From Deinococcales bacterium (GTDB lineage: Bacteria; Deinococcota; Deinococci; Deinococcales; JAAFIG01): 64,000 nt of DNA. Where the stretch lies: the NCBI GenBank assembly GCA_013298595.1, contig JAAFIG010000005.1, forward strand, positions 1-64,000, in the 5' to 3' direction. Below the pieces are notes generated by a model. That model had not been told where the DNA came from, did no database searches, and saw only the letters and a list, made by a program, of their open reading frames with translations. Position numbers and translations under genes: made by a program. The stretch's first letter is position 1. Each line of letters begins with the position of its first letter. This document shows, piece after piece, positions 1 through 64,000 of this stretch.

Positions 1-11
1 GGGCGACGAAG

Positions 12-40
12 AATGTATCACCCATTTGATTAACTGTCAA
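12..40 (-). promoter_or_regulatory. Possible promoter firing out of the left edge
   Basis: On the minus strand TTGACA (35-40) and TACATT (12-17) are separated by 17 bases. Any transcript would leave the window at its left edge, so the target gene is not visible. The stretch 1-130 holds no other convincing gene. A minus-strand frame stays open here but has no start codon and follows a stop and a terminator. Confidence 0.4.
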
Positions 41-130
41 GCTGTAAGGTGGGGTCGGGTGGAATGCGTGAAATACAACTTGGTTACTAGGTTTAGAAAC
101 TATACTCGAGGAACGTGAACCTGAGTTCAA

Positions 131-161
131 AAGAAAACCCCACTTAAATTTAAGTGGGGTT
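131..161 (-). terminator. Rho-independent terminator after the first lipoprotein gene
   Basis: A perfect 26-base palindrome at 136-161 (arms AACCCCACTT and AAGTGGGGTT) is followed on the minus strand by TTTTCTT. It lies about 24 bases past the stop codon of the lipoprotein gene. Confidence 0.85.
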
Positions 162-184
162 ATTGGAAGCTCGAGAAGAAATTT

Positions 185-751
185 TTATTGGCAGTTATCC
201 CAAACGGGGATGGCTTCAACCAAAGCGTTACTCGAGGAACTATCGCCTCTGGCATCGGTGATTTTCAGACGTAAATCCAGGGCGCCAATTTTAATTGGTG
301 GGTTTGGTAATGGATTTGGACCAGGCACAGGATTGACAACCACAGCTTGAGGCATGATGCCTTGCAGTGTCATGTTCGGGTTTTGGTAAGGCACTGTTCG
401 GGTGGCAAATCCAAAAACCACTTTGATGCGTTGACCTGTGACAGTCACACCAGCTGATGGTGGATTAAGTTGAAACGTTGGGGAACGATAGGTATCTCGG
501 GCTGCGGTTCTTCCGAATAAATTGGCTTGGAATGATTCAAAATTACTGATATCACCTGAAAAACGGAATTCCAATGTCACTAAAGTATCGCCTTTGTTAT
601 CACAAATTGCGGGTACTTGAGAACCGCTTCTCGACTCGACATAGTTGGAAGTAAAAACAATGTCATCTGAGAAAACCGTTATTAACCCAGTCGAAACGCA
701 ACTCGAGAGTAAGGCAGCTAGAGCGGCACCAGCTATAAGTATCTTTTTCAC
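185..751 (-). CDS. Putative lipoprotein of unknown function
   Basis: Not recognised beyond the export signal. The N-terminus is a short basic stretch, a hydrophobic run and a lipobox ending LLSSC, so a lipid-anchored envelope protein of about 188 residues is expected. The mature part is rich in Val, Thr, Pro and Asn and looks beta-rich. I prefer the GTG at 751 to the ATG at 757. TAGACT at 758-763 touches that ATG, so a transcript could hardly include it, while the GTG lies six bases past the -10 box as in the other apparently leaderless genes here. A strong terminator follows. Confidence 0.7.
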   Translation of the reverse strand: MKKILIAGAALAALLSSCVSTGLITVFSDDIVFTSNYVESRSGSQVPAICDNKGDTLVTLEFRFSGDISNFESFQANLFGRTAARDTYRSPTFQLNPPSAGVTVTGQRIKVVFGFATRTVPYQNPNMTLQGIMPQAVVVNPVPGPNPLPNPPIKIGALDLRLKITDARGDSSSSNALVEAIPVWDNCQ

Positions 752-858
752 TCCCATAGTCTACTCGAGAAACACAAACTGGCATGAGATGAAACTTAAA
801 AGAGTCTTTACTTTGCCTTGAGGCGGGGTTTAACTTACCTAAGATTAAGGATTTTAAC

Positions 859-1155
859 TTACTCGAGATCAAGAATTTCAAAGGTTTCGTCTCGGACAGT
901 ATATTCGCCGTTTCCTGCCACAAAGCCCGAAACATTTTGCAGTAAAGTCTCGAGCCATTGGGCATCGTGGGAGATGCTGACCACACCAATCACTTCCCAA
1001 TCGTGGGTATCTAAGCCATCTAAACGGGCTACAGAAACAGGAAAACGGGCTTTTAAACGTTCGGTAACAGGGCGAATAAGTGCTCGTTTTTCTTTTAAGT
1101 TATGCACCCACGGCATCTCGAGGCGGGCAGTATAAACACCAATATAACCAAGCAT
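859..1155 (-). CDS. DUF503 (YlxP-like) protein
   Basis: A 98-residue protein with the DUF503 signature: an N-terminal strand, the motif HNLKEKRALIRPV, a short helix and a segment describing heterodimer-like strands. Members are small cytosolic ferredoxin-fold proteins of unclear role, in Bacillus encoded near rbfA and infB. Here it follows a small ferredoxin-fold gene, with the upstream stop and this start overlapping as TAATG, so the two are probably translationally coupled. Confidence 0.75.
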   Translation of the reverse strand: MLGYIGVYTARLEMPWVHNLKEKRALIRPVTERLKARFPVSVARLDGLDTHDWEVIGVVSISHDAQWLETLLQNVSGFVAGNGEYTVRDETFEILDLE

Positions 1156-1364
1156 TAGAGCATTCCAGCAAGGAATCCTTGGCTTCTCACTGCACGCAGT
1201 AAATCCATAACAGTGGCTTGGGTTGGGTCGAAGTTGACTTCTAATTGCCCAGGGTGAGGGTTGACAATATCGGCAACTCCTTTAATGGTTTTTAATGCGT
1301 TAATTACACGCTCAACTGCTTCTTGGGTGGCTAATCCCCGAACACCTAATAAAACACGAGTCAT
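1155..1364 (-). CDS. Small HMA-like (heavy-metal-associated fold) protein lacking CXXC
   Basis: A 69-residue protein with the betaalphabeta-betaalphabeta pattern of HMA metal-chaperone domains: [18 protein letters not shown], then a strand, [14 protein letters not shown], and a final helix. The metal-binding CXXC of copper chaperones is absent, since GVRGLAT occupies the loop. Copper binding by the usual ligands is therefore unlikely, and the protein may be a structural or regulatory relative. It is the first gene of a two-gene unit with the DUF503 gene, overlapping it by TAATG. Confidence 0.6.
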
Positions 1365-1411
1365 GGCTGCATTCTACACTGCTCGAGAAGCAACATTGTA
1401 GAATGGAAGCT

Positions 1412-1645
1412 ATGCACAAGACTGCTTTGGCTGTGAATATTGCTTTTTTGATTGAACGCTGCTCGAGATTTATTGTGCCTAAACCACCAAGTACGCCGCC
1501 TGCGCGTTTGCAGTTCTCGAATGCAACGGTTGGGTTGTCGTTGCAGGAAACTTTGTATGCGGCGCGGCAACCACCTGCTCGAGTGGTGATTCTGCGAGAA
1601 GATGAGTATTTTGTGGCAGTGAAAACTTTGCTTGAAGAAATCTAA
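1412..1645 (+). CDS. Small hypothetical protein, 77 aa
   Basis: Not recognised. The start at 1412 (MHKTALAVNIAF) is preferred to the ATG at 1403. TAGAAT at 1399-1404 lies seven bases before 1412 and would place the transcription start at or near that codon, whereas the ATG at 1403 overlaps the -10 itself. The protein has a hydrophobic N-terminal third, a Pro-rich middle and an acidic C-terminus. It is divergent from the HMA-like gene and just upstream of the M3 peptidase. Confidence 0.55.
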   Translation: MHKTALAVNIAFLIERCSRFIVPKPPSTPPARLQFSNATVGLSLQETLYAARQPPARVVILREDEYFVAVKTLLEEI

Positions 1646-1690
1646 CGCACAAACCAATTGTTGAAAGTTGACAGCCTTTACAATGAGGTT

Positions 1691-3355
1691 ATGAACCCAC
1701 ACGATTGGAATTCGCTTGAGCCTTTATATACAGCCCTTGAAACTGCTCCTTTAGATGCCACTAATGCTCGAGATTGGCTTGGGCGCTGGTCTGCTATAGA
1801 CGCTAATTTAGCCGAAGCGTACTCTCGAGCTTACCGTGCTCGTATGGAAGATACCACCAGCGAAATGGCTGAACAAACCTTTTTGCAACTGGTTGAGAAT
1901 GTCATTCCAAAAGCCAAAGTGGTACAAAATACACTCGAGAAACGCTTTGCAGCACTGCAAGGATTTGATCATCCTGAAACCAACGAATTTTTGAAGCGCA
2001 CTCGAGCCAGTTTAGCGATTTTTACTGAAGCCAATATTCCATTATCAACTGAAGAAAGTAAACTTGAAGTGGAGTATGACAAACTCATGGGTGGCATAAA
2101 TGTTGTGATTGGTGGCGAAGAATTAACGTTGTATGGTGCAATGGCAAAATTCCTCGAGCCTGACCGAACGTTACGCCAAACAGTCTATGAAGCATTGATT
2201 GCTCAGTGGCAAAAAATCCGACCAGAACTTGATGCTTTGTTTTTAGCAGCCCTGAAAATTCGGCGACAAAAAGCCAAAAATGCGGGTTATGCAAATTACC
2301 GCGAGTTCATCTGGCATGCCAAAGCACGATTTGATTACACCCCAGCCGATTGTCTCGAGTTTCATCAAAGTATTCTCGAGCATGTTGTGCCAATCGCCAG
2401 CCGTGCCTACGCGAAACGCCGTGAAATGATGGGTATAGACACGATTCGCCCATATGATACCAGTGTAAACCCAAGCGGACTCGAGCCACTCAGACCATTT
2501 ACCACGGTGGCTGAACTTGAAGAGCAAATTGAACAAGTTTTCTCGAGTTTAGATACAGACCTTGGTGCAATGTTTAACACCATGCGGCATGGCGAACTTG
2601 ACTTAGATAGTCGTAAAGGCAAAGGACCGGGTGGGTACTGCGATTTTTTTGAAGCCAGTGGTAAAGCCTATATTTTTATGAATGCTGTTGGTACGCATGA
2701 CGATTTGCAAACTATGCTGCATGAAGGGGGACATGCTTTCCATGCTTTAGAAAGTTACGCCAGCCAACCACTGATGTGGAATCACCACGGACCAATGGAA
2801 TTTTGCGAAGTTGCCAGCATGGGTATGGAAATGCTGGCAATGCCGTACTTAGAAAAAAGCAAAGGCGGTATGTACACCCCAGCCGAAGCCAAACGTGCTC
2901 GAGCCGATCATTTGTTTGAATCAGTGATTACGTTTTTGCCATACATGGCATGCGTGGATGCTTTTCAACACTGGTTGTACGTGGATGCACCCGAAGATGT
3001 CAGCATTGCCAGTATTCATGCAAAATGGGTTGAACTGTACTCGAGTTTTGTACCACACATTGACTTTACAGGTATTGAAGAACAAATGTTATTTCGTTGG
3101 CAACGCCAAAGTCATATTTATACTGCGCCTTTTTACTATATCGAATATGGTATTGCCCAACTTGGAGCGGTGCAAGTCTGGCGCAACGCCAAAAAAGACG
3201 AAAAACAAGCTGTGCAACAATACCGCCAAGCACTCAGACTTGGCGGAACTCGAGGTTTAAAGGAATTATTTGCGACTGCTGGTATTCAACTGGCTTTTGA
3301 CTCGAATCATGTGGCTGGTTTAATGCAGCTCATCGAACAAGAATTAGGGCTTTAA
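1691..3355 (+). CDS. pepF: Oligoendopeptidase F-like M3 metallopeptidase
   Basis: A 554-residue cytosolic zinc peptidase expected to degrade short peptides. The M3 zinc motif HEGGH is at about residues 344-348 in the context MLHEGGHAFHALE. Further family hallmarks are MEFCEVASMGMEML, which supplies the third zinc ligand Glu, and the C-terminal FYYIEYGIAQLGAVQVW. I choose ATG 1691: TACAAT at 1679-1684 lies six bases upstream, suggesting a leaderless transcript. The TTG at 1658 would precede this -10 box. Length is slightly below the usual 565-600. Confidence 0.9.
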   Translation: MNPHDWNSLEPLYTALETAPLDATNARDWLGRWSAIDANLAEAYSRAYRARMEDTTSEMAEQTFLQLVENVIPKAKVVQNTLEKRFAALQGFDHPETNEFLKRTRASLAIFTEANIPLSTEESKLEVEYDKLMGGINVVIGGEELTLYGAMAKFLEPDRTLRQTVYEALIAQWQKIRPELDALFLAALKIRRQKAKNAGYANYREFIWHAKARFDYTPADCLEFHQSILEHVVPIASRAYAKRREMMGIDTIRPYDTSVNPSGLEPLRPFTTVAELEEQIEQVFSSLDTDLGAMFNTMRHGELDLDSRKGKGPGGYCDFFEASGKAYIFMNAVGTHDDLQTMLHEGGHAFHALESYASQPLMWNHHGPMEFCEVASMGMEMLAMPYLEKSKGGMYTPAEAKRARADHLFESVITFLPYMACVDAFQHWLYVDAPEDVSIASIHAKWVELYSSFVPHIDFTGIEEQMLFRWQRQSHIYTAPFYYIEYGIAQLGAVQVWRNAKKDEKQAVQQYRQALRLGGTRGLKELFATAGIQLAFDSNHVAGLMQLIEQELGL

Positions 3356-3383
3356 GTATCTACCGCCTACATTTTGGATTTTT

Positions 3384-18700: not shown

Positions 18701-20680
18701 ATGAGCGAACTCAAAAATGATTCTACGGCAGCAGCACACGAACAACCACACACCTTAAAGGACTGGTTACTCGAGGGCGCAAAAGAACCCGAAGGGGCAT
18801 TTGAATCCGAATCCGAAGTTGCAGCCCAGCATCATACGCAACCTTGGTGGAAGGTCATGTGTTTAACAGGTGTGGATTACTTTTCCTCACTGGGCTATCA
18901 ACCTGCTTTGGCTGCACTGGCAGCTGGGGCATTATCACCATTTGCCACACTGATTCTGGTGTTGGTAACGCTTTTTGGAGCCTTGCCAATGTACCGCCGA
19001 GTGGCAGCCGAAAGCCCGCACGGACAAGGTAGTTTATCCATGCTTGAGTCTTTACTGACATGGTGGGCAGGTAAATTAACTGTACTTGTGTTGCTTGGGT
19101 TTGCTATGACAGGTTTTATTATTACCATTACATTGTCAGCTTCGGACGCAGCAGCTCACATTATCGAAAACCCGTTGGTGCATCAATTTGTTGAAGGTAA
19201 AGCCGTACTGATTACATTAGTACTGATTTTGTTGCTGGGTGCTGTATTCTTAAAAGGTTTCTCGGAAGCTATTGGTATTGCTGTGGTTTTAGTTATTGCT
19301 TTCCTTGGCTTAAATGCTGTGGTTTTAGCCCGTTCTTTTTACGAGATTTTTACCCATCCAAATTATCTTCCAGATTGGCAGAGTTTAGTGAGTTTACGTG
19401 TCGATAATCCAGTGGGATTATTTGTTGCCTCATTTTTATTATTTCCACAACTGGCACTTGGCTTATCAGGTTTTGAAACAGGCGTTGCTGTTATTCCATT
19501 GGTGCGTGGTAATGCCAACGATAACCCTAAAAAACCATTAGGGCGTATTCGCAATGCCAAACGCCTTTTAACGGTAGCAGCTATTATTATGAGTGTCTAC
19601 TTACTGACTTCAAGCTTTGTGACCACATTGGTCATTCCAGCCGAGGAATTCCAAAAAGGTGGAGAAGCCAACGGGCGTGCCCTTGCTTACCTAGCCCATA
19701 AATTCTTAGGAGACGGTTTCGGTACGCTTTATGATGTCAGTACCATCCTGATTCTTTGGTTTGCAGGCGCAAGTGCTGTTGCTGCGCTGTTAAATTTAGT
19801 ACCACGCTACTTACCACGTTACGGTATGGCACCTGATTGGGCACGAGCCAACCGTCCATTAGTCATTTTGTTTACAGCCATTAGTGTAGCTGTTACAGTT
19901 GCATTTAACGCCGATGTCGAAGCCCAAGCGGGTGCATATGCAACAGGTGTACTGGCATTGTTCTCGAGTGCTGCTATTGCTGTAACACTTTCGGCTCGTA
20001 AAAAAGGACAAATTGGTTCAACGATTATGTTTGGTATCATCACTGCCATTATGTTGTTTGCCACAATTCACAACATTCTTGATCGTCCCGATGGTTTACG
20101 AATCGCAGGTGTGTTCATTGCAGGTATTGTTACTGTCAGTTTACTCTCCAGAACGTTTCGTAGTTTGGAACTTCGGGCGACAAAAATCGAATTGGATACC
20201 ACTGCCCAAAAATTCATTGATGACTTAGCTCATGGTGAGTTACGCATCATTGCCAATCGTCAGCAACGTGGTGATGAAGCCGAATACTACGATAAAGAAT
20301 TGCGTCAACGCGAAGATCATCATATCGAAGAACGCGAACCAGTGGTCTTTCTCGAGATTGAAATTTCTGATGCTTCCGATTTTGAGGATGTACTGCGAAT
20401 TCGTGGTGTTGAATTGACTGGTGAATGTGGCAAGTACCGAATTATGCGGGTTAAAGCACCTGCTGTACCAAATGCCATCGCTGCTTTCTTGTTGTACATC
20501 CGAGATGAAACGCATTTACAACCACATTGTTATTTCACATGGTCAGACGGTAATCCAATCCGTCATTTAATGAGGTATGTGCTGTTTGGCGAAGGTGATA
20601 CAGCCCCAATTACTCGAGAAATTTTGCGTCGTAACGAACCAAACCCTAAGCTTCGCCCAATGATTCACGTTGGTGGGTAA
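18701..20680 (+). CDS. APC-family transporter with C-terminal cytosolic domain
   Basis: A 659-residue integral membrane protein. The first 60 residues are hydrophilic and acidic, then about twelve hydrophobic helices begin with [20 protein letters not shown], an APC-superfamily start also seen in KUP-like permeases. A soluble region of about 170 residues follows, with an acidic/His-rich linker ([11 protein letters not shown]). The substrate may be an amino acid or K+ and cannot be decided here. GGGAG lies five bases before the ATG and TAGAAT about 36 bases upstream. It has only about four CTCGAG in 2 kb, a notable shortfall. Confidence 0.75.
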
Positions 20681-20735: not shown

Positions 20736-20740
20736 TTGTT

Positions 20741-28367: not shown

Positions 28368-29714
28368 CTACATTTTACTGACCCGCGCAAAAAACTCGAG
28401 GGCAAATGCCAAACCTTTTTCAAAATGCGCTTTGACAATGTTTTCGTTTGGTGCATGAACAAAGGATTTATGGTTGCTGATACCAGCACAAACCACGGGT
28501 AAACCAATAAAATCCACAAATGGTTGCATCGGACCACTGCCACCCGCGCTTGGTTCAACCACAGGTTCAATCCCAAACACATCTCGAGCTGTGGCAATAG
28601 CAGTTTGCATAAATGGATGAGTTAAATCGCTACGCGCTGCTAAACCACTGCTCTCGAGTTCAATCACTTCGATATCTGGCAAACCAATTTTGATCAAGTG
28701 GTTTTTTAGTAATTCAAGGATTTTGTTTGGGTGTTGCCCAGGAACAAGGCGAAAATCGAGTTTAACAAAACCTTCTTTTGGCAGCACAGTTTTGCTGCCA
28801 GCATCGCCATAACCACCATGAAAACCATTGACATTGATCACTGGCTCGAGACACAAACGCTCGAAAAACCGTGCACCACTAGCATTCTCGAGAAAACCTT
28901 TAATACCGTAAGCTTTAGCCAGTGCATCAGATTCGTCTGGCACATTGGCAACTGCCTCTAAATCGGCTTTAGAGGGCGCAATCACATCATCGTAAAAACC
29001 ATCAATTAAAATATGCCCAGTGTCATCTCGTAAACTCGAGACAGCTTTGGCTAAACGCCACAAAGGATTATCCACTACAGCGCCATAACTCGAGTGCAAA
29101 TCAGATTCAGCTACTTTGGCACGCAGTTCTAAACAAATGATGCCTTTTAAGCCACCAATCAAAATTGGTCTGCCACTTGGGTCTATGGCACCAAATTCCC
29201 ACCAGCAGCCATCAGCTTTTAATGCTATTGCATGGGTTTTGACAAAATTTTCAATACTTGGGCTACCAATTTCTTCTTCACCCTCGAGTAACCACTTGAT
29301 TTTCAAGGGCAAAACCCCACCATTTTGCGCTTTTAAGGCACGCAAAGCAGCTAAGCGCACAATAAACTCGCCTTTGTCATCCGAAACACCCCGAGCATGA
29401 AGCCGCACCACACCAGCTGCATCGGTACGTTCGGTCACTATAAACGGATCGGATTCCCATAACTCGAGTGGCGATTCTGGTTGCACATCGTAATGGTTAT
29501 AAATCAGCATGGTTCGAGCACCAGCTCCAGCCTCGGCAAGTAAAATTGGCGCAACTTTACCCGCAAAACGTTGCACCACAAAGCCTTCAGCTTCGAGTAA
29601 AGCCTGCACAAAATCTGCGCCACGCTCAAGATTTCGCCCTTGGGCACTGACCGTATCAATCGCAACAAGGTCAGACAGGTCTTTGTAAGCTTGTTCAATA
29701 AAAGAATTGTTCAT
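28368..29714 (-). CDS. M20-family dipeptidase/metallopeptidase
   Basis: A 448-residue cytosolic zinc peptidase of the M20 (carnosinase/DUG1-like) group. Metal-ligand motifs: NHYDVQP, GVSDDKGE (bridging Asp), WLLEGEEEIGSPS (catalytic base and ligand Glu) and SNHKSFVHAPNE (C-terminal His). The dimerisation lid lies between. TAGACT (29722-29727), which overlaps a CTCGAG, is seven bases before the ATG, suggesting leaderless expression. With the M3, M29 and C15 enzymes it adds to an unusually rich peptide-salvage set. Confidence 0.88.
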   Translation of the reverse strand: MNNSFIEQAYKDLSDLVAIDTVSAQGRNLERGADFVQALLEAEGFVVQRFAGKVAPILLAEAGAGARTMLIYNHYDVQPESPLELWESDPFIVTERTDAAGVVRLHARGVSDDKGEFIVRLAALRALKAQNGGVLPLKIKWLLEGEEEIGSPSIENFVKTHAIALKADGCWWEFGAIDPSGRPILIGGLKGIICLELRAKVAESDLHSSYGAVVDNPLWRLAKAVSSLRDDTGHILIDGFYDDVIAPSKADLEAVANVPDESDALAKAYGIKGFLENASGARFFERLCLEPVINVNGFHGGYGDAGSKTVLPKEGFVKLDFRLVPGQHPNKILELLKNHLIKIGLPDIEVIELESSGLAARSDLTHPFMQTAIATARDVFGIEPVVEPSAGGSGPMQPFVDFIGLPVVCAGISNHKSFVHAPNENIVKAHFEKGLAFALEFFARVSKM

Positions 29715-31411: not shown

Positions 31412-32383
31412 ATGCAAACCGATGTTACCGACGAAATTAGCCTCAGGGATGTTTACCTGATTCTTAAAAAATATTCACGATTTATTCTGGGTTGTACCAT
31501 TGGTGCAGCAGGTATTGCTTTAATTGCCTCTTTTGTCTTACCAAAATCTTTCTCGAGTCAAGCAACGCTTAATATTGCCATCGGTGCAGACCGAGCTGAG
31601 TTTAAAGGTGCGCCAAGTGCTGTTGGATTAGCCCAAGGTTTTATTCAACAAGTCGAAAAAGAATCTTTAACCAACGAATTAAAAGAAGAACGGCTCGAGA
31701 ATATTTTCAAAGCCAAATACGATGATAAAAAAGCTTTACTAAATTTAACAGCAGTTGGTGAAAGCCCAGAACAAGCCTTAACTCGAGCTGGGCGTATCGA
31801 AACAAGTTTTCGTGATTATGCCGAAAAACAAGTCAGTGGGGCAGTCCGAACGAATCTTGAAGGTAGTTTGGCGCAATCAAAAATTGATTTAGCCAGCAGC
31901 TCAGAAAATCTTAAACGTCTCGAGCCGCTTTTAAAAACCACTCCGCGTAGTCAAATCGATGGTGTGAGTGCCGCTGCGCTCGAATCAAATGGTGTGGATC
32001 CACAACTTGCCAGAACCAGTAATGCCGCTTTTGTTAATTTAGCACTGCAAGTCACACAATTAAAAGCGGGTGTTGTTGCTATTCAATCTAGGATTATTTC
32101 ACTCGAGGGTATTCTTAAAAATGCCACTGCTTTCAAAGGTTTACTTGGACAAGGTTTCCAAATCCAAACGTTAGCTGTGCCTAGCCTTCCACTGACGCAT
32201 GATTCACCGCGAGCTGGCATTATTACAGCACTAGCAGCAGTTGCAGGGTTGTTGCTTGGCTTGGTTGGCGCTTTTATACTCGAGGCATTACGACCAGAAA
32301 CAGCACAAAATAAAATTAACCCATCGCGTAACGAACTAACTCGAGGGAATACAGAATCACCTCGAGTCAACCCAGGCGATTAA
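31412..32383 (+). CDS. Wzz/chain-length-determinant-like membrane protein
   Basis: 323 residues. EISLRDVYLILKKYSRFILG opens a Wzz-type N-terminal transmembrane segment (GAAGIALIASFVLP), followed by a long periplasmic helical region and a second transmembrane helix (AAVAGLLLGLVGAFILEALRP). It ends in a short cytosolic tail with no kinase domain. Such proteins regulate polysaccharide chain length. Together with csaB it indicates surface polysaccharide synthesis. Its stop overlaps that of convergent argF within TTAA. AAGGA lies ten bases before the ATG. Confidence 0.75.
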   Translation: MQTDVTDEISLRDVYLILKKYSRFILGCTIGAAGIALIASFVLPKSFSSQATLNIAIGADRAEFKGAPSAVGLAQGFIQQVEKESLTNELKEERLENIFKAKYDDKKALLNLTAVGESPEQALTRAGRIETSFRDYAEKQVSGAVRTNLEGSLAQSKIDLASSSENLKRLEPLLKTTPRSQIDGVSAAALESNGVDPQLARTSNAAFVNLALQVTQLKAGVVAIQSRIISLEGILKNATAFKGLLGQGFQIQTLAVPSLPLTHDSPRAGIITALAAVAGLLLGLVGAFILEALRPETAQNKINPSRNELTRGNTESPRVNPGD

Positions 32384-33303
32384 TCGCGTAACACATGGTA
32401 AAGTAAGGCTTTTTGGGCATGAAGCCGATTCTCGGCTTGGTCAAAAACCTTGGATTTTGGGTGCAGTGTTGCAGCTTCGACAACTTCTTCACCATAATGG
32501 GCGGGTAAGCAGTGCAGAAAAATTCCATCAGAGTCTATTAACTCGAGCATTTCAGGGTTGACTTGAAAACCTGCAAAATCCCGAATTTTGCGCCGTTCTG
32601 AGGCTTCTTGCTCTTGACCCATACTGACCCATACATCGGTGTAAAGCACCTTTGCACCTCGAGCCGCTGCAATTGGATCATTGGTAATTTTAATGGTTGC
32701 TCCCTGATGCAAAGCCTCGAGCAGCACAGCTGCATTGGGTTCATAACCACGAGGAGTGGCAATGGTGAAATTGATGCCTGTTAGCAGTGCCATTTCGATA
32801 AAACTATTTGCCATGTTATTGCCATCACCAATGTATGTAACAGGTAACCCTTTCATACTCGAGAAATGCTCCTCGATGGTCTGAAAATCTGCGAGTAACT
32901 GTACAGGGTGTAAGTAATCTGATAAACCATTAATCACGGGTTTAGAGCTGTGCTTCGCTAATTCCTCAAGGGTACTATGCAAAAAAACCCGTGCCATAAT
33001 GCCATCCACCCAGCGCTCGAGGTTGAGTGCCACATCTCGAATAGGTTCTCGAGTACCTAGCCCAATTTCGGCATTGGTTAAATTGACACTGTGTCCACCG
33101 AGTTGAAACATGGCAACATCAAAGGTTGTGCGGGTTCGTAAACTGGGTTTTTCAAAAATCATGGCGAGGGTTTTACCCTCGAGTGGTTTTTGTCCTTTGA
33201 ACTCACCGCGTTTTAAGGCATGAGCGGTGTCCATTATGCCTCGGTACTCGAGTGGGCTGAGGTCTGCATTACGAAGGAAATCGCGTCCACGCAAATCTGT
33301 CAT
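32380..33303 (-). CDS. argF: Ornithine carbamoyltransferase
   Basis: A 307-residue enzyme forming citrulline from ornithine and carbamoyl phosphate in arginine biosynthesis. Motifs: EKPSLRTRTTF (the STRTR-type carbamoyl phosphate site), HPVQLLADF, and the ornithine-side FLHCLPAHYGEEV. The start MTDLRGRDFL at 33303 is seven bases past TACACT (33311-33316). The longer frames start upstream of that box. No other arg gene is in the window. Confidence 0.93.
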   Translation of the reverse strand: MTDLRGRDFLRNADLSPLEYRGIMDTAHALKRGEFKGQKPLEGKTLAMIFEKPSLRTRTTFDVAMFQLGGHSVNLTNAEIGLGTREPIRDVALNLERWVDGIMARVFLHSTLEELAKHSSKPVINGLSDYLHPVQLLADFQTIEEHFSSMKGLPVTYIGDGNNMANSFIEMALLTGINFTIATPRGYEPNAAVLLEALHQGATIKITNDPIAAARGAKVLYTDVWVSMGQEQEASERRKIRDFAGFQVNPEMLELIDSDGIFLHCLPAHYGEEVVEAATLHPKSKVFDQAENRLHAQKALLYHVLRD

Positions 33304-33310
33304 GAGCATC

Positions 33311-33335
33311 AGTGTACCGTGCCAAGCCGTACAAT
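33311..33335. promoter_or_regulatory. Back-to-back -10 boxes for argF and the NUDIX gene
   Basis: TACACT on minus (33311-33316) is seven bases before the argF ATG. TACAAT on plus (33330-33335) is eight bases before the NUDIX ATG. The 40-base gap leaves no room for separate -35 boxes, so each would overlap the other's -10. Confidence 0.55.
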
Positions 33336-33343
33336 GCACAGCA

Positions 33344-33781
33344 ATGAACATCACCCGAGATTTTACAGTGGCAGTGTTTGTGGCTTGGCAAAAGCGAGTA
33401 TTGCTGCATCAGCATGCAAAACTCGGTTTGTTCTTACCACCTGGCGGGCATATCGAACCAAACGAATTGCCCGATAACGCTGCAACTCGAGAAACTCTTG
33501 AAGAAACAGGTATTTCAGTACAATTGATTGGCGAACTTGCACCAAAAAGCACACAACCTAATGCACCAAAACCGCTTATTCGACCCAGAGGTGTGCAACT
33601 CGAGCAGATTAGTGTTGGACATGAACACATAGACCTTGTGTATTTTGCTAAGCCACTCGAGCCATTTGATGGCAGGGCACTCGAGCCATTTTTCTGGGCA
33701 ACAATGGCTGATCTCGAGACATTGCCTGCATCGGAGGAAATCAAGTTGTGGTGCCAATTGATATTCATGGAATTAGCTTGA
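33344..33781 (+). CDS. NUDIX hydrolase
   Basis: A 145-residue hydrolase with a complete NUDIX box, GGHIEPNELPDNAATRETLEETGI (catalytic RE..EE). The substrate class, a nucleoside diphosphate linked to X, cannot be specified. The start at 33344 follows TACAAT by eight bases. Longer frames run antisense through argF. It is divergent from argF. Confidence 0.85.
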   Translation: MNITRDFTVAVFVAWQKRVLLHQHAKLGLFLPPGGHIEPNELPDNAATRETLEETGISVQLIGELAPKSTQPNAPKPLIRPRGVQLEQISVGHEHIDLVYFAKPLEPFDGRALEPFFWATMADLETLPASEEIKLWCQLIFMELA

Positions 33782-34119: not shown

Positions 34120-34216
34120 TGGTGATTCCGATGTGTATTTTGGTGTATTTGATCTTGAGTGAACATGTTGTAATTGTAGCAGAAATTATTTTTTGCCTGA
34201 ATTGTATCTCAATAAA

Positions 34217-34246
34217 CTTGACAAGACCACACTCAAGTTTTATTGT
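34217..34246 (+). promoter_or_regulatory. clpB promoter overlapped by a HAIR-like HspR operator
   Basis: TTGACA (34218-34223), a 17-base spacer and TATTGT (34241-34246) form the promoter. Over it lies CTTGACA-N7-ACTCAAG (34217-34237), five of seven bases in the left arm and all of the right arm matching the HspR operator CTTGAGT-N7-ACTCAAG. HspR repression of clpB and dnaK is known in actinobacteria and Deinococcus. Confidence 0.75.
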
Positions 34247-34297
34247 GTATGTACTTCAAGCCGATACATTCTTGTCGGCACTCGAGGAGACGCAGCA

Positions 34298-36856
34298 ATG
34301 AACCCAGAACGGTATACAGAACTTGCCTTACAGACACTGCAAAATGCCCAGAGTAAAGCGGCGGCTATTGGTAATTCGCACTTAATGCCAGCGCATGTGT
34401 TGCTGGTCAGTCTTGAATCAGATAATCCGAGTGCGCGAATGCTCGAGGTGGCTGGTGGGAATGTTAAAAATGTACGGGTGTTTCTCGAGCGGCATTTGCA
34501 ATCGCAACCAAAAACCTCGAGTAACCCTGGCGCTTTTGCTGGTCAGGAATTTGCTCGTGGTTTAGAACGTGCCGAAAGTATTGCTAAGGAACTTGGCGAC
34601 GCTTTTATTGGCGCTGATGCTTTATTTTTTGCCATGCGTGAACAATTTGCCAGTAATGAACTACCAGATACTCGAGCTTTGCGAACAGCGCTCGAGTCTA
34701 TGCGAGGAGGTCGTAAAGTGGATTCTAAAACAGCTGAAACAACGTTTGAGGCGCTTGAAAAATATGGTGTGGATTTAACTGCCAATGCGCGTGAGGGTAA
34801 GTTAGACCCTGTGATTGGACGCGATGAAGAAATTCGTCGGGTGATGCAGATTTTGTTGCGTCGGACTAAGAATAATCCTGTGGTGATTGGCGAACCTGGT
34901 GTGGGTAAAACTGCAATCGCCGAGGGCTTAGCTCAACGTATTGTTAAAGGCGATGTGCCAGAAGGCTTAAAGCATAAACGCATTGTTAGTTTAGCGATTG
35001 GTAATTTGTTAGCGGGTGCAAAATTCCGTGGTGAATTCGAGGAACGCTTAAAAGCTGTGATGCAAGAAGTTGCTGATGCGGCTGGCGAGATTATCCTATT
35101 TATAGACGAGTTACACACCATTGTTGGCGCAGGTAAAACCGAAGGTAGCCCCGATGCTGGCAATATGCTCAAACCCGCTTTGGCTCGAGGTGAACTGCAT
35201 TTAATTGGTGCAACCACCCTCAAGGAATACCGTGAAATCGAAAAAGATGCTGCCCTCGAGCGACGTTTTCAACCTGTTTATGTGAACGAACCCAGTGTTG
35301 AAGATACGATCAGTATTCTGCGTGGTATCAAGGAACGTTACCAAGTGCATCATAATGTCGAAATTACCGACCCTGCTGTGGTGGCAGCCGCTACACTTTC
35401 GCATCGGTATATTGCAGATCGGCAATTGCCAGACAAAGCCATTGATTTAATAGATGAAGCGGCTGCGCGTTTGCGGATGCAACTCGAGTCTAGCCCAGAA
35501 GAAATTGATACGCTTGAGCGGCGCAAATTGCAACTCGAGATTGAGCAACAAGCCCTCTCTAAGGAAAAGGACGAGGATTCAGCGCGGCGACTCGAGGATA
35601 TCAGCCGAGAACTCCAAGATGTGACAGCCAAAACCAAGGGTTTGCGTTCCGAATGGGAAGTTGAACGGGCTGAGTTAATGAAACTCAAAGAAGCTCGAGA
35701 AAACCTTGATTCGGTTCGTGTGCAAATTGAACGAGCTGAACGCGATTACGATTTATCAAAAGCGGCTGAGTTAAAATATGGGTCTTTGCCAGCCCTCGAA
35801 GCTGAAGTACGGGCTTTGGAACAAAAACTTAAAGGGGCAAAATTTGCTTCTAGCCAAGTTACCGAGAACGATATTGCCGAAATTGTTGGACGTTGGACAG
35901 GCATTCCAGTGACGCGTTTACTTGAAGGTGAGCGCGAAAAATTATTGCGTTTAGAAACCGAATTACACTTGCGCGTGATTGGTCAACAAGATGCGGTTCG
36001 TGCAGTTGCAGATGCCATTCGCCGCTCGAGAGCTGGTTTATCCGACCCGCGCCGTCCAATTGGTAGTTTTATGTTCCTAGGTCCAACAGGTGTCGGTAAA
36101 ACTGAACTTGCCAAGGCATTAGCAGGGTTTTTATTTGATACCGAAGATGCAATGGTGCGTTTAGATATGTCTGAGTACATGGAAAAACACAGTGTCAGCC
36201 GTTTGATTGGCGCACCTCCTGGCTATGTTGGTTACGAAGAAGGCGGACAACTCACCGAGGCAATTCGTCGTCGTCCGTATGCAGTTATTTTGCTTGATGA
36301 AATCGAAAAAGCCCACCCAGATGTCTTTAATACCCTTTTACAAGTGCTTGATGATGGTCGTTTAACCGATGGTCAAGGGCGTACTGTAGATTTCCGCAAT
36401 GCTGTAATTATCATGACCAGCAATATTGGTAGCCCAATCATTCTCGAGGCAGCTCGCAATGGTGGTGTGACTCGAGGTACCAAAGAAGAAGTGCAGCATT
36501 TATTAGCCCAGCATTTCCGTCCTGAATTCCTCAATCGCGTGGATGAAATTGTGATTTTTGATGCTTTAACCGTGCATCAAATGCGGGAAATCGTGGATAT
36601 TCAACTTTCGGGTTTGCGAAACAGATTACTTGAACGCGGTGTGCGCCTCGAGTTATCTGATCTTGCCAAAGATCACCTCGCAGGGATGGGTTACGACCCA
36701 GCTTACGGTGCTCGACCACTAAAACGAGCCATTGGACGCGAACTCGAGACCCCAATTGCTAAACGTATTCTGGGTGGAGAAGTACCTGATAACTCGAGTT
36801 TAGTCGTGGATTATGCCAATAACGGGTTTACCTTTGGCTCAAGATTAGCGAATTAA
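34298..36856 (+). CDS. clpB: ClpB-type AAA+ disaggregase
   Basis: An 852-residue chaperone that with DnaK resolubilises aggregates. Clp-N repeat domain (1-140), first AAA+ with GEPGVGKT at about 198 and ELHTIVGAG, a long coiled-coil middle domain (about 400-520, [21 protein letters not shown]), and second AAA+ with GPTGVGKT at about 595, [14 protein letters not shown] and NRVDEIVIF. The middle domain marks it as ClpB rather than ClpA or ClpC, though the order of features is shared. The start at 34298 follows GAGGAG by nine bases. The longer frame enters the promoter. Likely heat-shock regulated. Confidence 0.93.
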
Positions 36857-37597: not shown

Positions 37598-39463
37598 TTG
37601 AGAATTAATCCTTTTGTTATTTTTGTTGTTATTATCGCAGTTTTTTTTGCTTTCCAAGCAATGAACCCAACTGGTTCTAGCGGGCGGCAAATTGGCTACA
37701 GCGATTTTCTTGCTTTGGTTGAAACAGGCAAAGTCAAAGAAGTTGCTATCACCGAGAATTATCTCGAGATCACCTTGAAGCAAGTAGAACGTATCGAGTT
37801 AGCTAAGGGGCGGAGTGTTGAATCAAGCACATTTAATACATTGTTGCCATCGGTGGAAGCTCGAGACCCCGATTTAATTCCGACCTTAAAAAAGAATGGT
37901 GTGGCAATTCAAGCCCAAAATCCTTCACCTTGGTTTAGCATTATCACTGCCTTTTTACCTGTGCTTTTAATGTTAGGTATTTTCTGGTTTATTTTTATGC
38001 GTGGACAAGGTGCTCAAGGGCAAGTCATGCAATTCGGGCAATCTCGAGCTAAGCAATATGGCAAAGAGAAAAAAGTCAGCACTGCTTTTGCCGATGTCGC
38101 TGGTCACGAAGAAGTCAAGCGTGAATTAATCGAAGTTGTGGATTTTCTTAAAAGCCCAGGCAAATACCATGCTGTGGGAGCAGAAATCCCTAAAGGTGTG
38201 TTGCTGGTTGGACCTCCTGGTACGGGTAAAACTTTGTTAGCCAGAGCAGTGGCTGGTGAAGCGGGTGTGCCATTTTTCACTGTGTCTGCTTCTGAATTTA
38301 TGGAGATGTTTGTTGGTGTTGGTGCTTCTCGAGTGCGAAGTTTATTTGATGATGCTCGTAAAGCTGCCCCTGCGATTATTTTTATTGATGAGTTGGATAG
38401 CATTGGTCGTAAGCGTGGAGCTGGTATTGGTGGTGGGCACGATGAGCGTGAACAAACACTGAATCAAATCCTGACCGAAATGGATGGTTTTGATAAGCAA
38501 ACCTCAGTGATTGTTATGGCAGCCACCAACCGCCCAGATGTGCTTGATAGTGCTTTGTTGCGTCCAGGTCGGTTTGATCGCCAAGTAACAGTGGATTTAC
38601 CAACTATGAAAGAACGCGAACAAATCATTCAAGTGCACATGCGAAATAAGCCCATTGATGCTGATGTCAACGTTGAAATTCTTTCAAAAATGACTCCTGG
38701 TATGAGTGGTGCAGATCTGAAAAACCTTGCTAACGAAGCAGCCCTTGAGGCAGCTCGTCGGGGCAAAACCAGTTTGGCTATGCAGGATTTCTCGAGAGCA
38801 TTTGATAAAATTACTCTTGGACTCGAGCATGGCAGTATGATGATCTCGAATGAAATGAAACGTTCAACTGCTTATCACGAAGCTGGTCATGCTGTGATTG
38901 CCCAAGTGCTACCGTATGCCATGAAACCAGTGAAGGTCAGTATTGTGCCTCGTGGTCGTACACTCGGTGTTGCGATGTATGCACCAGAGAACGAATCTGA
39001 GATGCTCGAGATGACTCAGCAACGCGCCGAAGCAACACTGGCAGCAACCTTAGCAGGACGGGCTGCCGAAGAAGAATTTATTGGGTATGTTGGTGCAGGT
39101 GCTTCCAACGATTTCCAACGCACCATTCAGTTAGCACGTCGTATGGTGCTCGAGTGGGGTATGGGTGATCGTTTACGTAATATTGCTTGGGGTGGAGCAA
39201 GCAGTGGTCCTGTGTTCCTTGGTGAGCAAATTGTCAATCGTTCAGAGGTTTCTGATGAAACGGCTCGGATGATTGATGCTGATATTAAAGATATTTTAGA
39301 CCGAGCCTATGCCAATACCAAAGTAGTGATGAAACAATACGCTCAAGCAATGCACGATGTTGCTAACGCTTTGCTCGAGAATGAAATCATCACGGGTGAA
39401 ACTGTGCGTGATGCGGTTGATCGGGTGCGTCGTACCATAGATGTGCCACCATTGAACGCGTAA
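37598..39463 (+). CDS. ftsH: ATP-dependent membrane zinc metalloprotease FtsH
   Basis: 621 residues. TTG start with GGAGGG eight bases upstream. N-terminal transmembrane helix ([14 protein letters not shown]), periplasmic domain, second helix ([16 protein letters not shown]), AAA module with GPPGTGKT (about 205) and the SRH region ([20 protein letters not shown]), and an M41 peptidase with HEAGH at about 427. It degrades membrane and regulatory proteins in a hexamer. The upstream DNA is AT-rich with CTTGAGT at about 37512, only half of an HspR-type site. Confidence 0.95.
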
Positions 39464-59704: not shown

Positions 59705-60670
59705 ATGAAATGGTTACTATTTGTTTTGGCACTCTCGAGTGTGGTTGTCGCAGCCAGAGATTTTCCTGATCCCAGCACCAGCCCAAACAGTATTGTTGCA
59801 CTGCAAGCACGGGCTTACGTTGGCAGTGCCATCACCCTCGAGCGCCGCTTAAAAGATGGGATCAATTACCGTCAATGGGTGGCTTCGTACCAATCCGATG
59901 GTCTTAAAATACTGGCTTTGCTGACCATTCCCAAAGCCAAAATGCCAAAAAAAGGTTTTCCTGTGATTGTTTTTAACCACGGATACATCCCACCTGAGCA
60001 GTACCGCACCACCGAAAAATACGTGGCGTACCAAGCAGGTTTTGCCAAGAATGGGTACATTGTTTTTAAGCCCGATTACCGAGGTCATGGCTTCTCGCAA
60101 GGCAAACCCTCGAGTGCGTATTCTGCGCCTGATTACACCATAGATGTGATGAATGCCGTCTCGAGTATTAAAAAATTACCACAAGCCAATGCGGCTCGAG
60201 TTGGACTTTGGGGTCATTCAATGGGCGGGTATTTGAGTTTACGAGCCTTGGTGCTTGGCTCAGGGGCAAAAGCCGCTGTGATTTGGGGTGGCGTGGTTGC
60301 TTCGCATTTGGACATTATTAAATTCTGGAACTCGAGAAGTACAGCCGAAAACTCGAGATTCAGACGGTACGCTAAGGAACGCGAAGTGATTTACAAGAAA
60401 TTTGGGAGTCCCACAGAGAATCCTGCGTTTTGGAATGCTCTAAGTGCCAATACCTTTATTACTGCGCCAATTGCACCAATTCAGTTGCATCATGGAATTT
60501 CGGACACGGTTGTACCCGTGGCTTTCTCGAGAACGCTCTCGAGTCAACTTAGAAGCGTTGGCAGTCCCGTCGAAATGTATGCGTATCCGCGCACAGACCA
60601 TAACCTTTCGCAGAGTTTTAATACTGCCATGCGGCGCAGTGTGGTTTTCTTTGACCGTTACTTAAAATAA
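59705..60670 (+). CDS. Exported alpha/beta hydrolase (S9/dienelactone-hydrolase-like)
   Basis: 321 residues with signal peptide MKWLLFVLALSSVVVAARD. The alpha/beta hydrolase core shows FNHGYIPPEQY (oxyanion loop), DYRGHGFSQGKP, GLWGHSMGGYLSLRA (nucleophile Ser), HHGISDTVVPVAFS (Asp) and RTDHNLS (His). Secreted esterase or peptidase. A longer frame from 59669 starts before the promoter's -10, so 59705 is preferred. Location after the G8 lipoprotein suggests extracellular polymer degradation. Confidence 0.82.
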   Translation: MKWLLFVLALSSVVVAARDFPDPSTSPNSIVALQARAYVGSAITLERRLKDGINYRQWVASYQSDGLKILALLTIPKAKMPKKGFPVIVFNHGYIPPEQYRTTEKYVAYQAGFAKNGYIVFKPDYRGHGFSQGKPSSAYSAPDYTIDVMNAVSSIKKLPQANAARVGLWGHSMGGYLSLRALVLGSGAKAAVIWGGVVASHLDIIKFWNSRSTAENSRFRRYAKEREVIYKKFGSPTENPAFWNALSANTFITAPIAPIQLHHGISDTVVPVAFSRTLSSQLRSVGSPVEMYAYPRTDHNLSQSFNTAMRRSVVFFDRYLK

Positions 60671-60961
60671 TTTATTCACTCGAGCAGTTGAGAAACTAGA
60701 GTGTTTTAGCTCGAGCAAATAGATGGGTTCAGATTTTCTAGTGCACTTTTGGATGTGCTGACAAGGGTGTACAGCATGACTAGCTCGAGCCATTTGCAGC
60801 AAAATGCTTGCGAAGATAAAGTTATGCGGAAAAGTTTTTGTTAAGCCCTGAGTTAGCAAAAACCGCATTGTGTTTTGCTTTTACCCGCTAAATCACCGCA
60901 CATTCGAGGGGGTTCGCTTCTAGACTGTGAATGTGTTTGCTTGAGAATTGGGATTTAGCAT
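60671..60961. other. Intergenic region with one bulged hairpin
   Basis: 290 bases without a convincing gene. CTCGAG occurs three times. GCGG-(AAAAG)-TTTTTG pairs with CAAAAACCGC (60826-60866), followed by ATTGTGTTTTGCTTTT, a possible terminator for the upstream hydrolase although 155 bases away. Short open frames here lack start signals and family resemblance. Confidence 0.4.
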
Positions 60962-61687
60962 TTAACCGTCGAGCGATGTATGTAAATACCAGTAGCCCTG
61001 TAAAGGCAAAAATTTATAGGTGGGATTATAAAAAAGATGTTTCGCTTTTGAGAAATCATATTCGGTGTAGACAAAAACTTTCCAGTAATGATTGCCAAAA
61101 CTTCCGGCTCGAAAACGCCAAAACCAGTATTCAAATCTGTCTCCAAATTTCTTTCGTTCAATTTGACGCTCACCAAACTGCTTTGGTAGAAGACTCACTA
61201 GCATATTCCACTCAGACAACTGCTCCTTTGTAAAGCCTCGGGTGATTTCTTGCTCACTTTGGGAGTAATTAGAGTAGTTTTTACTGATAGACTCTGTGAG
61301 CTTGCCTAGGGCAACTAATCGTTGAAAATTCTTTTGGTGAGTCGAAAATTCTGCTAATAGTCTACTATGTCTTGGAACAAAGCAACCGCACTCTATTCGA
61401 CCTTGCTGATATGCAAACAAAAAAGCGGGAATCGAAACTAAAAAAATTGCAATATAAGCAAAGCTGAAAGGTTTAGTGTAAAAACCAGCAGTAAAAAAAT
61501 CGGGAATAAGGCTTCTCGAGACAATCCAAAGAGGAATAATCAATGCTGTTCCAAGAGAAAACAAAATCACTACAAATTCAAACCTTTGCATAACAGCACA
61601 AAGAAAAAAGTATGTCAGTACATTAACCCCAAACCAAACAGCCAATCTTCTGGGTACAGAAACATTTGAACGGAAACTTTTTAACAT
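60962..61687 (-). CDS. Hypothetical membrane protein, 241 aa
   Basis: Not recognised. Three hydrophobic helices (about 14-100: WFGVNVLTYFFLCAVM, FVVILFSLGTALIIPLWIV, FSFAYIAIFLVSIPAFLFAY), a short CGCF-containing loop, and a 140-residue hydrophilic C-terminal part with many aromatics (FEYWFWRFRAGSFGNHYWKVF). AT-rich with only one CTCGAG in 726 bases and a codon choice that looks less regular than its neighbours, so it may be recently acquired. Reading frame and coding look are reasonable but not proven. Confidence 0.6.
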   Translation of the reverse strand: MLKSFRSNVSVPRRLAVWFGVNVLTYFFLCAVMQRFEFVVILFSLGTALIIPLWIVSRSLIPDFFTAGFYTKPFSFAYIAIFLVSIPAFLFAYQQGRIECGCFVPRHSRLLAEFSTHQKNFQRLVALGKLTESISKNYSNYSQSEQEITRGFTKEQLSEWNMLVSLLPKQFGERQIERKKFGDRFEYWFWRFRAGSFGNHYWKVFVYTEYDFSKAKHLFYNPTYKFLPLQGYWYLHTSLDG

Positions 61688-61893
61688 AAAAACACTTACG
61701 ACTTAACAAGCAATTTAGTTTCATACAATCTTGGCGGCTGACCCAAGCCCACGCACTCGAGAAATCAAGAACCGCCTCGGCTCGAGTACACTTCAGTGCT
61801 GTTTTTGCTTACCTCGAGACCAGATTTACCAGTTGGGTGTAACGTAAATCAAAGCTCGAGGGGCTTTTGTGCTCCTCGAGCTGACTTGATCGT
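61688..61893 (-). terminator. Terminator with CTCGAG stem (61853-61882) in a CTCGAG-rich gap
   Basis: AGCTCGAGG (61853-61861) and CCTCGAGCT (61874-61882) form a 9-bp stem, extended by GC/GC, just downstream of the subtilase stop. A weak T-run (TTTGATTT) follows on minus. The rest of the gap has three more CTCGAG and no gene. Confidence 0.65.
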
Positions 61894-64000
61894 TTAGTAC
61901 CTAAATGTGCCCAGATTAATCGGAATTGCACCAATGGTGATTTCTCGAGTGATAGCTGTTGTGGTGACTGGGAAAGTATACAAAGTTGTGTTGGTTTGGC
62001 AACTGTAACCAATTGGCACAGGATGACAAACATAGTACTCGCCTGTTCCGTTTTGGTCTGCATCAATGACGGTTTCAATGGCGTAATTGCCAGTGGGTAC
62101 TGTGCTGTTAAACCTGAACTTGTAGCCTTGTTCAGGAACCCATTTCATGACTTGTCGTCCAGCAGTTGTATATGCTGTGGCAGCATTGTTGAGTTGAAGT
62201 AATGCAATATAGGCTCGTCCTGCGTCTACAGTACCAGCACCTTGTCGGTAATATACAGGAGCAAAGGTATTTTGCGTGCCTGTACTGGCTTGGATACTCC
62301 CAATGTAAGAACCATCAGCTAATCCTGTGCGATTGAGATTGACGTTAATGGTCACACTGCTATTGCCTGCGATGTTGCCTGTGGCACTACCCGAAACATC
62401 ACCACTAATAAAGGCATTTGAACCACTGAGTGTGTATGTTCCAGCGGTACTCGAGAGGTTGCGTAAAGTCATTGTACCTGTGGTGGTGCTTGCTCCAAAA
62501 TCTAATCCAGGGTTGGTGGTTGTTCCCGAAGCATTGTACTCGAGTTGTAAGAACGCACCAATTGGGTTGTTGCTTATAGCTGCTGCTATGGCAGCAACGG
62601 CGTTGACTGCACCTGCTCCGCAACCACTATCGCAACCAGAACCAGCGGGAATGGGTGTCGCGGTGCTTTGTAAGTAAAAAGTGGCTTGTTGCAAATTGAG
62701 TTTAGGTAAACTGTTGGCTACTCGAGCAGCGTTCATTAAGCCAATAATGCCAACAATGTGTGGTGTTGCCATGCTTGTTCCTTGGTATTCGGTGTAGCCC
62801 CACGGGGCAGCTCCGCAACCTGTAGTTGGGTCAGGTGGTGTTTGTCCATTGGCATTGCAACCAAGGGTAGAAAGAACGCCATTAGGTGTTGTGGCACTGT
62901 TAAAATCGCCACCAGGAGCAGCAATTTCTACAGCAGAACCATAATTGGAATAATAAGCGCGTTTTACGCCAGGTCCTAGAGCCGCCACAGTTAAAACATT
63001 GCGTTGACCCGCTGGAGCGTAACCATAAGCATTGTCGTTGTCGTTACCAGCTGCGACCACAAGGACTTTACCAGCGGTGTTGACATCATCGGCTGCGTCT
63101 TGGTATGCCTGATCTACTCCAGCTCCACCTAGGCTCATGTTGAGAATATCCGCAGGATTTGGATTGGTGATGCTTGTATTGCCTGAACCTGTATTAACAG
63201 TAACTGGTAAACCAGCTGCCCAACGCATGGCTCGAGTAATGTCGGAGGTGGAACCACCACTAGGTCCTAATACTCGGACTGCCATCATGCGGCTGCTCCA
63301 GTTAATGCCTGCAATACCAAGATTGTTGTTGCTACAAGCCCCGATTGTGCCTGCAACGTGGGTTCCATGCAAGCTGGTATCAGCGTATGGTCCAAGGTCG
63401 TAAGGGTCGTCATCATCGAAGGTGTTGGCTTCGACACTGCTGGCATAGGAAACAAAATCAAAGCCGGGTAACCATCTGTTGGTTGCACCAGAACCACAGT
63501 ATAAATCTTCGTGGGTGCTGGCTTCTTTGGTGTTATTCACGTCTAAACCAATGTAATCGGCTTTGTTATACAAAATGCCTGTGTCTAAAATAGCAACGAC
63601 TACACTCGAGTCGCCTGTGGTTATATCCCAAGCCGTTGGAATGTTTGCCATTGAGTAATGCCAAAAGTTATTGGGGGTATTAGCAGGAGATTGCACAGGG
63701 TACTTTGGGTCGTTAGGGGTTAGGGTGTGTTTGTATAAATAATTGGGTTGGGCGTATTCAACATCGGCTCGAGTTCGTAATTGTGCAATAAAATCAAGGG
63801 TTGATTGAGCATCTGGGGTTGAAGCCTGAATTGAAGCGATGCCAGCTCGGGGGGGTATACTCGAGCTAGTCACCAAACTGGTGTTCTCAAATAAAGGTTG
63901 TTGATTCAGCACCGATAATGGACGTAACACACCATCGAATGGCAAGGGTTTAAATTTCACAATGGCTTGTCCGATGACAAAACGGGCTTCTGTGGCAATG
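61894..64000 (-). CDS. Subtilisin-like (S8) serine protease, 5' end beyond the window
   Basis: At least 701 residues are visible. The frame stays open to the right edge: before the in-frame GTG at 63960 it encodes TEARFVIGQAIVKFKP, a typical propeptide strand, so the true start is outside. Propeptide (FIAQLRTRADVEYAQPNYLY), catalytic Asp in AILDTGI, His in LHGTHVAGT, Asn-containing VVAAGNDND and Ser in QGTSMATPHIVG. A disulfide-rich segment (GSGCDSGCGAG) and a C-terminal beta domain follow. Secreted protease. Terminator downstream. Confidence 0.93.
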   Translation of the reverse strand, partial: IATEARFVIGQAIVKFKPLPFDGVLRPLSVLNQQPLFENTSLVTSSSIPPRAGIASIQASTPDAQSTLDFIAQLRTRADVEYAQPNYLYKHTLTPNDPKYPVQSPANTPNNFWHYSMANIPTAWDITTGDSSVVVAILDTGILYNKADYIGLDVNNTKEASTHEDLYCGSGATNRWLPGFDFVSYASSVEANTFDDDDPYDLGPYADTSLHGTHVAGTIGACSNNNLGIAGINWSSRMMAVRVLGPSGGSTSDITRAMRWAAGLPVTVNTGSGNTSITNPNPADILNMSLGGAGVDQAYQDAADDVNTAGKVLVVAAGNDNDNAYGYAPAGQRNVLTVAALGPGVKRAYYSNYGSAVEIAAPGGDFNSATTPNGVLSTLGCNANGQTPPDPTTGCGAAPWGYTEYQGTSMATPHIVGIIGLMNAARVANSLPKLNLQQATFYLQSTATPIPAGSGCDSGCGAGAVNAVAAIAAAISNNPIGAFLQLEYNASGTTTNPGLDFGASTTTGTMTLRNLSSTAGTYTLSGSNAFISGDVSGSATGNIAGNSSVTINVNLNRTGLADGSYIGSIQASTGTQNTFAPVYYRQGAGTVDAGRAYIALLQLNNAATAYTTAGRQVMKWVPEQGYKFRFNSTVPTGNYAIETVIDADQNGTGEYYVCHPVPIGYSCQTNTTLYTFPVTTTAITREITIGAIPINLGTFRY

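Follow-up and report, generated by a model that had tools for sequence, protein, structure and literature searches.

Highly iterated palindromes (HIPs) are known from cyanobacteria, where HIP1 (GCGATCGC) and the alternate HIPs are each one short palindrome that is hugely over-represented in all codon phases and in non-coding DNA (Robinson 1995; Elhai 2015, PMC4390886). DNA uptake sequences of the Neisseriaceae and Pasteurellaceae also accumulate genome-wide, which can be explained by molecular drive (PMC1939737, PMC2397512), and Chi sites are short over-represented words read by a core recombination enzyme. In Nocardia, a solitary (orphan) methyltransferase is directed at the hexamer CTCGAG, and the sites cluster near dnaA (Blow 2016, PMC4752239); genome-wide iteration is not known from that case. 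Here, we analyzed CTCGAG in a 64,000-nucleotide stretch of a Deinococcales bacterium (contig JAAFIG010000005.1; G000:C45:1-64000, hereafter the window) and in the 4,582,226-base draft genome (68 contigs) to which it belongs. In the Deinococcota, CTCGAG very probably belongs to the HIP class: it is a single palindrome in gross genome-wide excess, independent of reading frame and coding status. It is not HIP1 proper, which has the sequence GCGATCGC and belongs to cyanobacteria. As expected of a genome with an alternate HIP, HIP1 is scarce here: GCGATCGC has 4 copies in the 4.58 Mb. The original prediction, made from the letters of the window, had named HIP1 as the parallel, and this is borne out by an element that is ubiquitous, phase-independent and conserved between species while HIP1 itself is absent. 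It had also cited no equivalent with this sequence; a search of open-licence PMC papers found no report of CTCGAG as such an element, and Elhai 2015 lists other alternates without mentioning CTCGAG.

Abundance of CTCGAG in DNA and proteins

The window contains 378 copies of CTCGAG against 12.2 expected from base composition (31x). Exactly 62 lie in the first 10 kb, where the original prediction had counted about that number, and each 10 kb across the first 60 kb holds 54-64. The genome totals 27,159 copies, about one per 170 bases. Unmasked Markov models hide this excess because most CTCGA and TCGAG words of the genome belong to the motif. The reversed word GAGCTC was dropped as a neutral control since it is itself avoided (15 copies genome-wide), and we therefore adopted Markov backgrounds from which CTCGAG was masked. 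Against these, 438 kb of the genome contain 2,515 copies where 28 (Markov-1, 90x) or 39 (Markov-2, 65x) are expected, so that the excess first put at about 35-fold is a fair figure for a composition-based model and becomes 65-90x with the motif masked.

The 18 one-mismatch neighbours occur 0-29 times each in the window. They were predicted to be scarce, which is true beside CTCGAG itself and not true against a proper background, where each of the three transition neighbours reaches 1.4-2.5x expectation (about 2x) and most inner transversion neighbours fall to 0.4-0.9x, in coding and non-coding DNA alike. The transition neighbours are the visible decay products of CTCGAG, and near matches get converted. 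Genome-wide counts near expectation, or neighbours as abundant as the motif, had been named in advance as results that would overturn the observation; we found neither.

Sites are spread without regard to genes. Taking long open reading frames (ORFs) as genes, the density in the window is 5.91/kb in coding and 5.91/kb in non-coding DNA, and the coding copies fall in codon phases 0, 1 and 2 in numbers of 177, 81 and 90, which agrees with the earlier claim of all phases and non-coding DNA (occurrence on both strands is automatic for a palindrome). Under a codon-position-specific Markov model the enrichment is 75x, 39x and 108x in the three phases and 51x in non-coding DNA. These numbers bear on the possibility that CTC and GAG are simply preferred codons, to which the share of about half of the sites in phase 0 lends some support. 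Codon shuffling, proposed with the original prediction as a check, separates the two: 200 synonymous shuffles gave a mean of 26.5 and a maximum of 41 copies against 341 observed. CTCGAG accounts for half of the CTC and GAG codons and for a third of the CGA and TCG codons, and the dipeptide Leu-Glu is itself in excess. Codon or dipeptide bias is thus refuted for the strong carriers and is extremely improbable as a general explanation; in GC-rich Thermus, much of the count can be put down to codon use.

The proteome carries the imprint of the motif. Among 121,595 residues we counted 1,817 Leu-Glu pairs, 2.40x expectation, whereas Glu-Leu stands at 0.96. CTCGAG encodes 65% of the Leu-Glu pairs, and the remaining pairs amount to 0.85 of the total Leu-Glu expectation. 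Five strong carriers have a Leu-Glu observed/expected ratio (O/E) of 2.1-2.5; in Meiothermus, Calidithermus and Marinithermus it is 1.4-1.8, in Thermus and the non-carrier genome G007 1.07-1.21, and in four groups of other phyla 0.80-0.97. Since the excess tracks the strength of the motif, the force exceeds a choice among synonyms: it overrides weak protein constraint and scars the proteome.

CTCGAG is also the XhoI linker site, and cloning linkers, assembly or contamination could in principle create such an excess. That reading is refuted, with a negligible probability, by the occurrence of CTCGAG within conserved genes, in metagenome-assembled genomes (MAGs) that come from different projects and in the completed genomes of cultured species.

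Persistence of sites and distribution in the phylum

We compared five genes of the window (Table 1) with their orthologues in five related genomes. CTCGAG sites in the dipeptidase, ornithine carbamoyltransferase (OTC), ClpB, FtsH and permease genes keep their homologous positions 3-5 times as often as other hexamers do: 68% against 21.5% within the genus, 55% against 10% and 32% against 9% between genera of the same family, and 32-36% against 8-9% in the next family. At Leu-Glu pairs conserved between two species, CTCGAG is present in both in 60 cases, in one only in 19 and 42, and in neither in 15. Both species thus have similarly high CTCGAG rates at these pairs, with no further correlation between sites. 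Because no site memory is visible within conserved Leu-Glu, occupancy resembles an equilibrium rather than a set of individually needed sites. Comparing CTCGAG with CTTGAG, CTCGAA and CTTGAA within Leu-Glu gave scaled strengths of 2.95, 3.68 and 4.33, corrected for codon use outside the motif and assuming detailed balance. A selection-like force with a scaled strength of about 3-4, acting evenly over the genome, maintains and re-creates the intact hexamer, in non-coding DNA as well as in every codon phase.

Table 1 Features of the window
Feature	Position	Strand	Remarks
CTCGAG, 378 copies, even spread	1..64000		first starts at 105, 170 and 231; last at 63860
APC-type permease gene	18701..20680	+	in orthologue comparison; also probe for Deinococcus plasmids
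M20-type dipeptidase gene	28368..29714	-	in orthologue comparison; also query for naming relatives
OTC gene	32380..33354	-	in orthologue comparison
clpB	34193..36856	+	NCBIfam TIGR03346; in orthologue comparison
ftsH	37598..39463	+	in orthologue comparison

We surveyed 111 genomes of the Deinococcota, most of them sampled in part (12-438 kb); the draft genomes used are 91-96% complete. The dipeptidase led to relatives among Deinococcales MAGs, followed by Calidithermus and Thermus; a scan for relatives with the single protein PolX gave no match. All four genomes of the family contain 26,619-28,178 copies of CTCGAG although their sampled GC content varies from 0.44 to 0.59. In the next family, two genomes (G004 and G006) have a strong phase-corrected excess and a third, G007, has none (0.3-1.4x). 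Phase-corrected excesses of 4-44x were found in Meiothermus ruber (G030), Calidithermus chliarophilus (G024), G022, which we take to be A. silvanus, and G008, presumably Marinithermus (hydrothermalis). The excess in Thermus is weak (2-10x, from few sites), and five Deinococcus plasmids show none (22 copies against 34 expected, two plasmids having no copy). Two families of uncultured Deinococcales thus show a strong signal; it is moderate in Meiothermus, Calidithermus and Marinithermus and weak in Thermus, and the identity of the motif is stable across four or five families. Outside Deinococcus, the trait probably goes far back in the phylum and was probably lost at least once.

In four genomes, pairs of CTCGAG less than about 20 bp apart are depleted two- to tenfold, and there is no long-range order or regular spacing; no concentrated region was seen in the sampled 438 kb. 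Direct selection, in which every site would be useful by itself as a binding site of a chromosome-organizing or repair protein, could explain an even, dense spread, an exclusion of about 20 bp compatible with a footprint and a motif that is constant across families. It is quite improbable all the same: a use for each site is hard to believe given equal density everywhere without concentration and a cost in protein sequence, and the close relative G007 lives without the motif.

Two CTCGAG-poor islets (G000:C1:37000-42000 and 224000-227000) coincide with genes for type IV prepilin-like and minor pilin-like proteins; these were either recently exchanged or are poor in Leu-Glu by composition. A methyltransferase islet beside a XisH gene (GC 0.32) has no CTCGAG at all and is a recent import.

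DNA uptake offers another account of the distribution. If uptake preferred CTCGAG, as in the self-recognition of Neisseria and Haemophilus during transformation, the motif would spread by a special case of drive with the bias at uptake. Molecular drive is able to make uptake sequences accumulate (PMC1939737, PMC2397512), and phase-blind, genome-wide accumulation together with absence from recent import would fit. The published drive model, however, yields near matches enriched by degrees; here the only raised neighbours are decay-type transitions, and most inner transversions are reduced; the motif is short, and coding DNA is no poorer in sites than non-coding DNA. The excess in Thermus is only weak. 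The phylum includes transformable genera; against this, Thermus is not known to prefer any sequence in DNA uptake, known uptake sequences are several times less dense than CTCGAG, and we know of no uptake bias in the Deinococcota. We regard this explanation as distinctly unlikely.

Methyltransferases and avoided palindromes

In the scheme of Elhai (2015), a solitary methyltransferase would mark CTCGAG and methyl-directed mismatch repair would preserve the mutations that create sites. Cyanobacterial alternate HIPs come with a cognate methyltransferase (PMC4390886), and the orphan enzyme of Nocardia, with site clusters near dnaA (PMC4752239), acts on the same hexamer. We searched for methyltransferases with PF00145 (in the genome of the window) or the C5 protein, and with PF01555, PF02086, PF07669 and PF02384. 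The genome encodes one C5 enzyme, two PF01555 enzymes, of which one has an adjoining NotI-family nuclease, a large PglX/BREX-like protein, a TaqI-fold enzyme with a partner ORF and a weak D12 match; there was no further PF02384 match. When 126 methyltransferase-like frames were clustered at at least 38% identity, no group occurred in every one of the family's four genomes or spanned the carriers. A homologue of the Nocardia enzyme was not identified in these searches either. The solitary CTCGAG methyltransferase suggested by the original prediction was thus sought without success, and the long-resident C5 enzyme points to CCGG instead.

This solitary C5 gene (G000:C15:67907-69034; L009:1444-2574, L220) holds 6 CTCGAG sites and shows kinship to HpaII/MspI-linked enzymes: its plasmid relatives (58%) adjoin the nucleases HpaII and MspI, both of which cut CCGG. 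In three sampled Deinococcales genomes with the C5 enzyme, CCGG is depleted to 0.13 (the genome of the window), 0.25 and 0.05. We rejected it as the CTCGAG enzyme on homology and site avoidance. The orthologue in G006 adjoins an HNH nuclease gene without CTCGAG, a recent import. The methyltransferase on G000:C66 was rejected as well, being recently imported and free of CTCGAG.

Other enzymes were recorded. A beta-class DNA methyltransferase (G000:C34:88649-90495; L010:1399-3245) is followed by a NotI-family nuclease (PF12183). On G000:C11 (L058:402-2826), a 307-aa ORF of no assigned family lies beside a 499-aa TaqI-fold methyltransferase in an apparent restriction-modification pair of unassigned specificity, and both members have linked homologues on Klebsiella plasmids. 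CTCGAG itself is not avoided in the genome. Two points are in favour of methylation outside the family. In the complete genome G008, C1 (L078:13943-15286) encodes a close M.TaqI homologue (E 1e-126) with no obvious nuclease neighbour, and TCGA is the core of CTCGAG. The sampled Meiothermus and Calidithermus genomes share two conserved solitary groups, one of the beta class and one of the D12 class (65-83% identical), neither of which turned up in the one Thermus genome searched; among the matches listed, no plasmid homologue of the Meiothermus enzymes had a named neighbouring nuclease.

Several observations argue against methylation as the driver. TCGA outside CTCGAG is not enriched, and the core was rejected as the real target. 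At the CpG, C>T changes do not exceed those at the outer C, and a mutation signature of 5-methylcytosine is therefore missing. Elhai's GmeC repair model fails because CTCGAG lacks the GC dinucleotide that it requires (PMC4390886) and because its density, one site per 170 bp, exceeds the model's saturation near one per 1,000 about sixfold. Methylation is not supported so far and its simplest form is removed; most methyltransferase specificities are unreadable from sequence and the drafts are incomplete. Overall, we consider methylation-linked drive rather unlikely.

Other palindromes behave differently. The other 63 hexamer palindromes stand at 0.26-0.47 of expectation in carriers of the family (0.15-0.25 for GC-rich ones) and at 0.94 in G007, which we read as pressure from many restriction systems that CTCGAG alone escapes. 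Palindrome avoidance and CTCGAG go together (Spearman -0.71, from 16 samples whose relatedness makes them non-independent). On two plasmids, from Deinococcus psychrotolerans and Deinococcus sp. QL22 (L451, L455), hexamer palindromes stand at 0.26-0.28 and CTCGAG is missing, and G008 has CTCGAG at 6x without avoidance (0.90). The traits are therefore separable, and general palindrome avoidance was rejected as the cause. GGCC is nearly absent from the window and from the genome at large (12 copies against 1,286 expected in the 438 kb), G001 and G002 likewise having an O/E of 0.01-0.02, and no enzyme was tied to this depletion. Viral contigs with three close CTCGAG sites were nearly all GC-rich and hence uninformative.

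Proposed mechanism and comparison with known systems

We tentatively favour molecular drive by a core, vertically inherited reader of CTCGAG as the most likely mechanism. A chromosome-encoded protein would recognize the intact hexamer and bias which allele survives when homologous DNA is repaired or recombined, DNA acquired by transformation included; equally weak, uniform selection would have the same effect. A core reader is preferred over a restriction-modification enzyme because CTCGAG is constant across four or five families with no methyltransferase common to the carriers. Drive is preferred because the motif outlasts methyltransferase turnover, its strength does not vary with context and amino acids give way to it. 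For the whole explanation, a HIP-class element together with a force exerted by such a reader, we estimate a probability of roughly 0.45.

Several points weigh against it. The reader protein is hypothetical, and drive and uniform weak selection on 27,000 sites give one pattern and are indistinguishable here. The avoidance of 6-bp hairpins may account for the short-range depletion of pairs. Thermus is highly transformable; given its weak excess and the absence of any excess on the Deinococcus plasmids, transformation, if involved, is not sufficient. The carrier-free relative G007 shows that the system is dispensable. A broader proposal, which we find doubtful, is that, from an ancestor of several families onwards, a methyltransferase-independent core reader has driven CTCGAG to fixation at every position that proteins tolerate and so rewritten the proteome, and that HIP1 is the convergent product of a like system.

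Among known systems, uptake sequences are longer than CTCGAG, non-palindromic and commoner than expected in non-coding DNA, and have graded near matches. Chi is oriented and non-palindromic, and CTCGAG is far denser. The closest resemblance is to HIP1: in a Nostoc plasmid with HIP1, GC-rich palindromes are likewise down (O/E 0.25). Unlike HIP1, CTCGAG occurs in another phylum, is 67% GC, lacks the GC dinucleotide and reaches about 5.9/kb against about 1/kb. It is kept across several families with no common methyltransferase found, unlike the sporadic replacement of HIPs. The visible dipeptide excess in proteins may be a further difference. Such a DNA motif, which biases amino acid pairs proteome-wide, matters for analyses of codon usage and dipeptides. 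HIP1 has reportedly lacked an explanation since 1995 and is said to have been seen as a question of cyanobacteria and of CGATCG methylation. CTCGAG is an independent, about six times denser HIP1-like element with a new sequence, outside the cyanobacteria. Carriers and non-carriers within one phylum, including cultivable thermophiles (Meiothermus), allow comparison. As a second case, it separates the general features of HIPs (a palindrome that is phase-blind and conserved, with other GC-rich palindromes avoided) from those that are not general, namely the GC dinucleotide, the density of one per kb and the lineage-specific methyltransferase.

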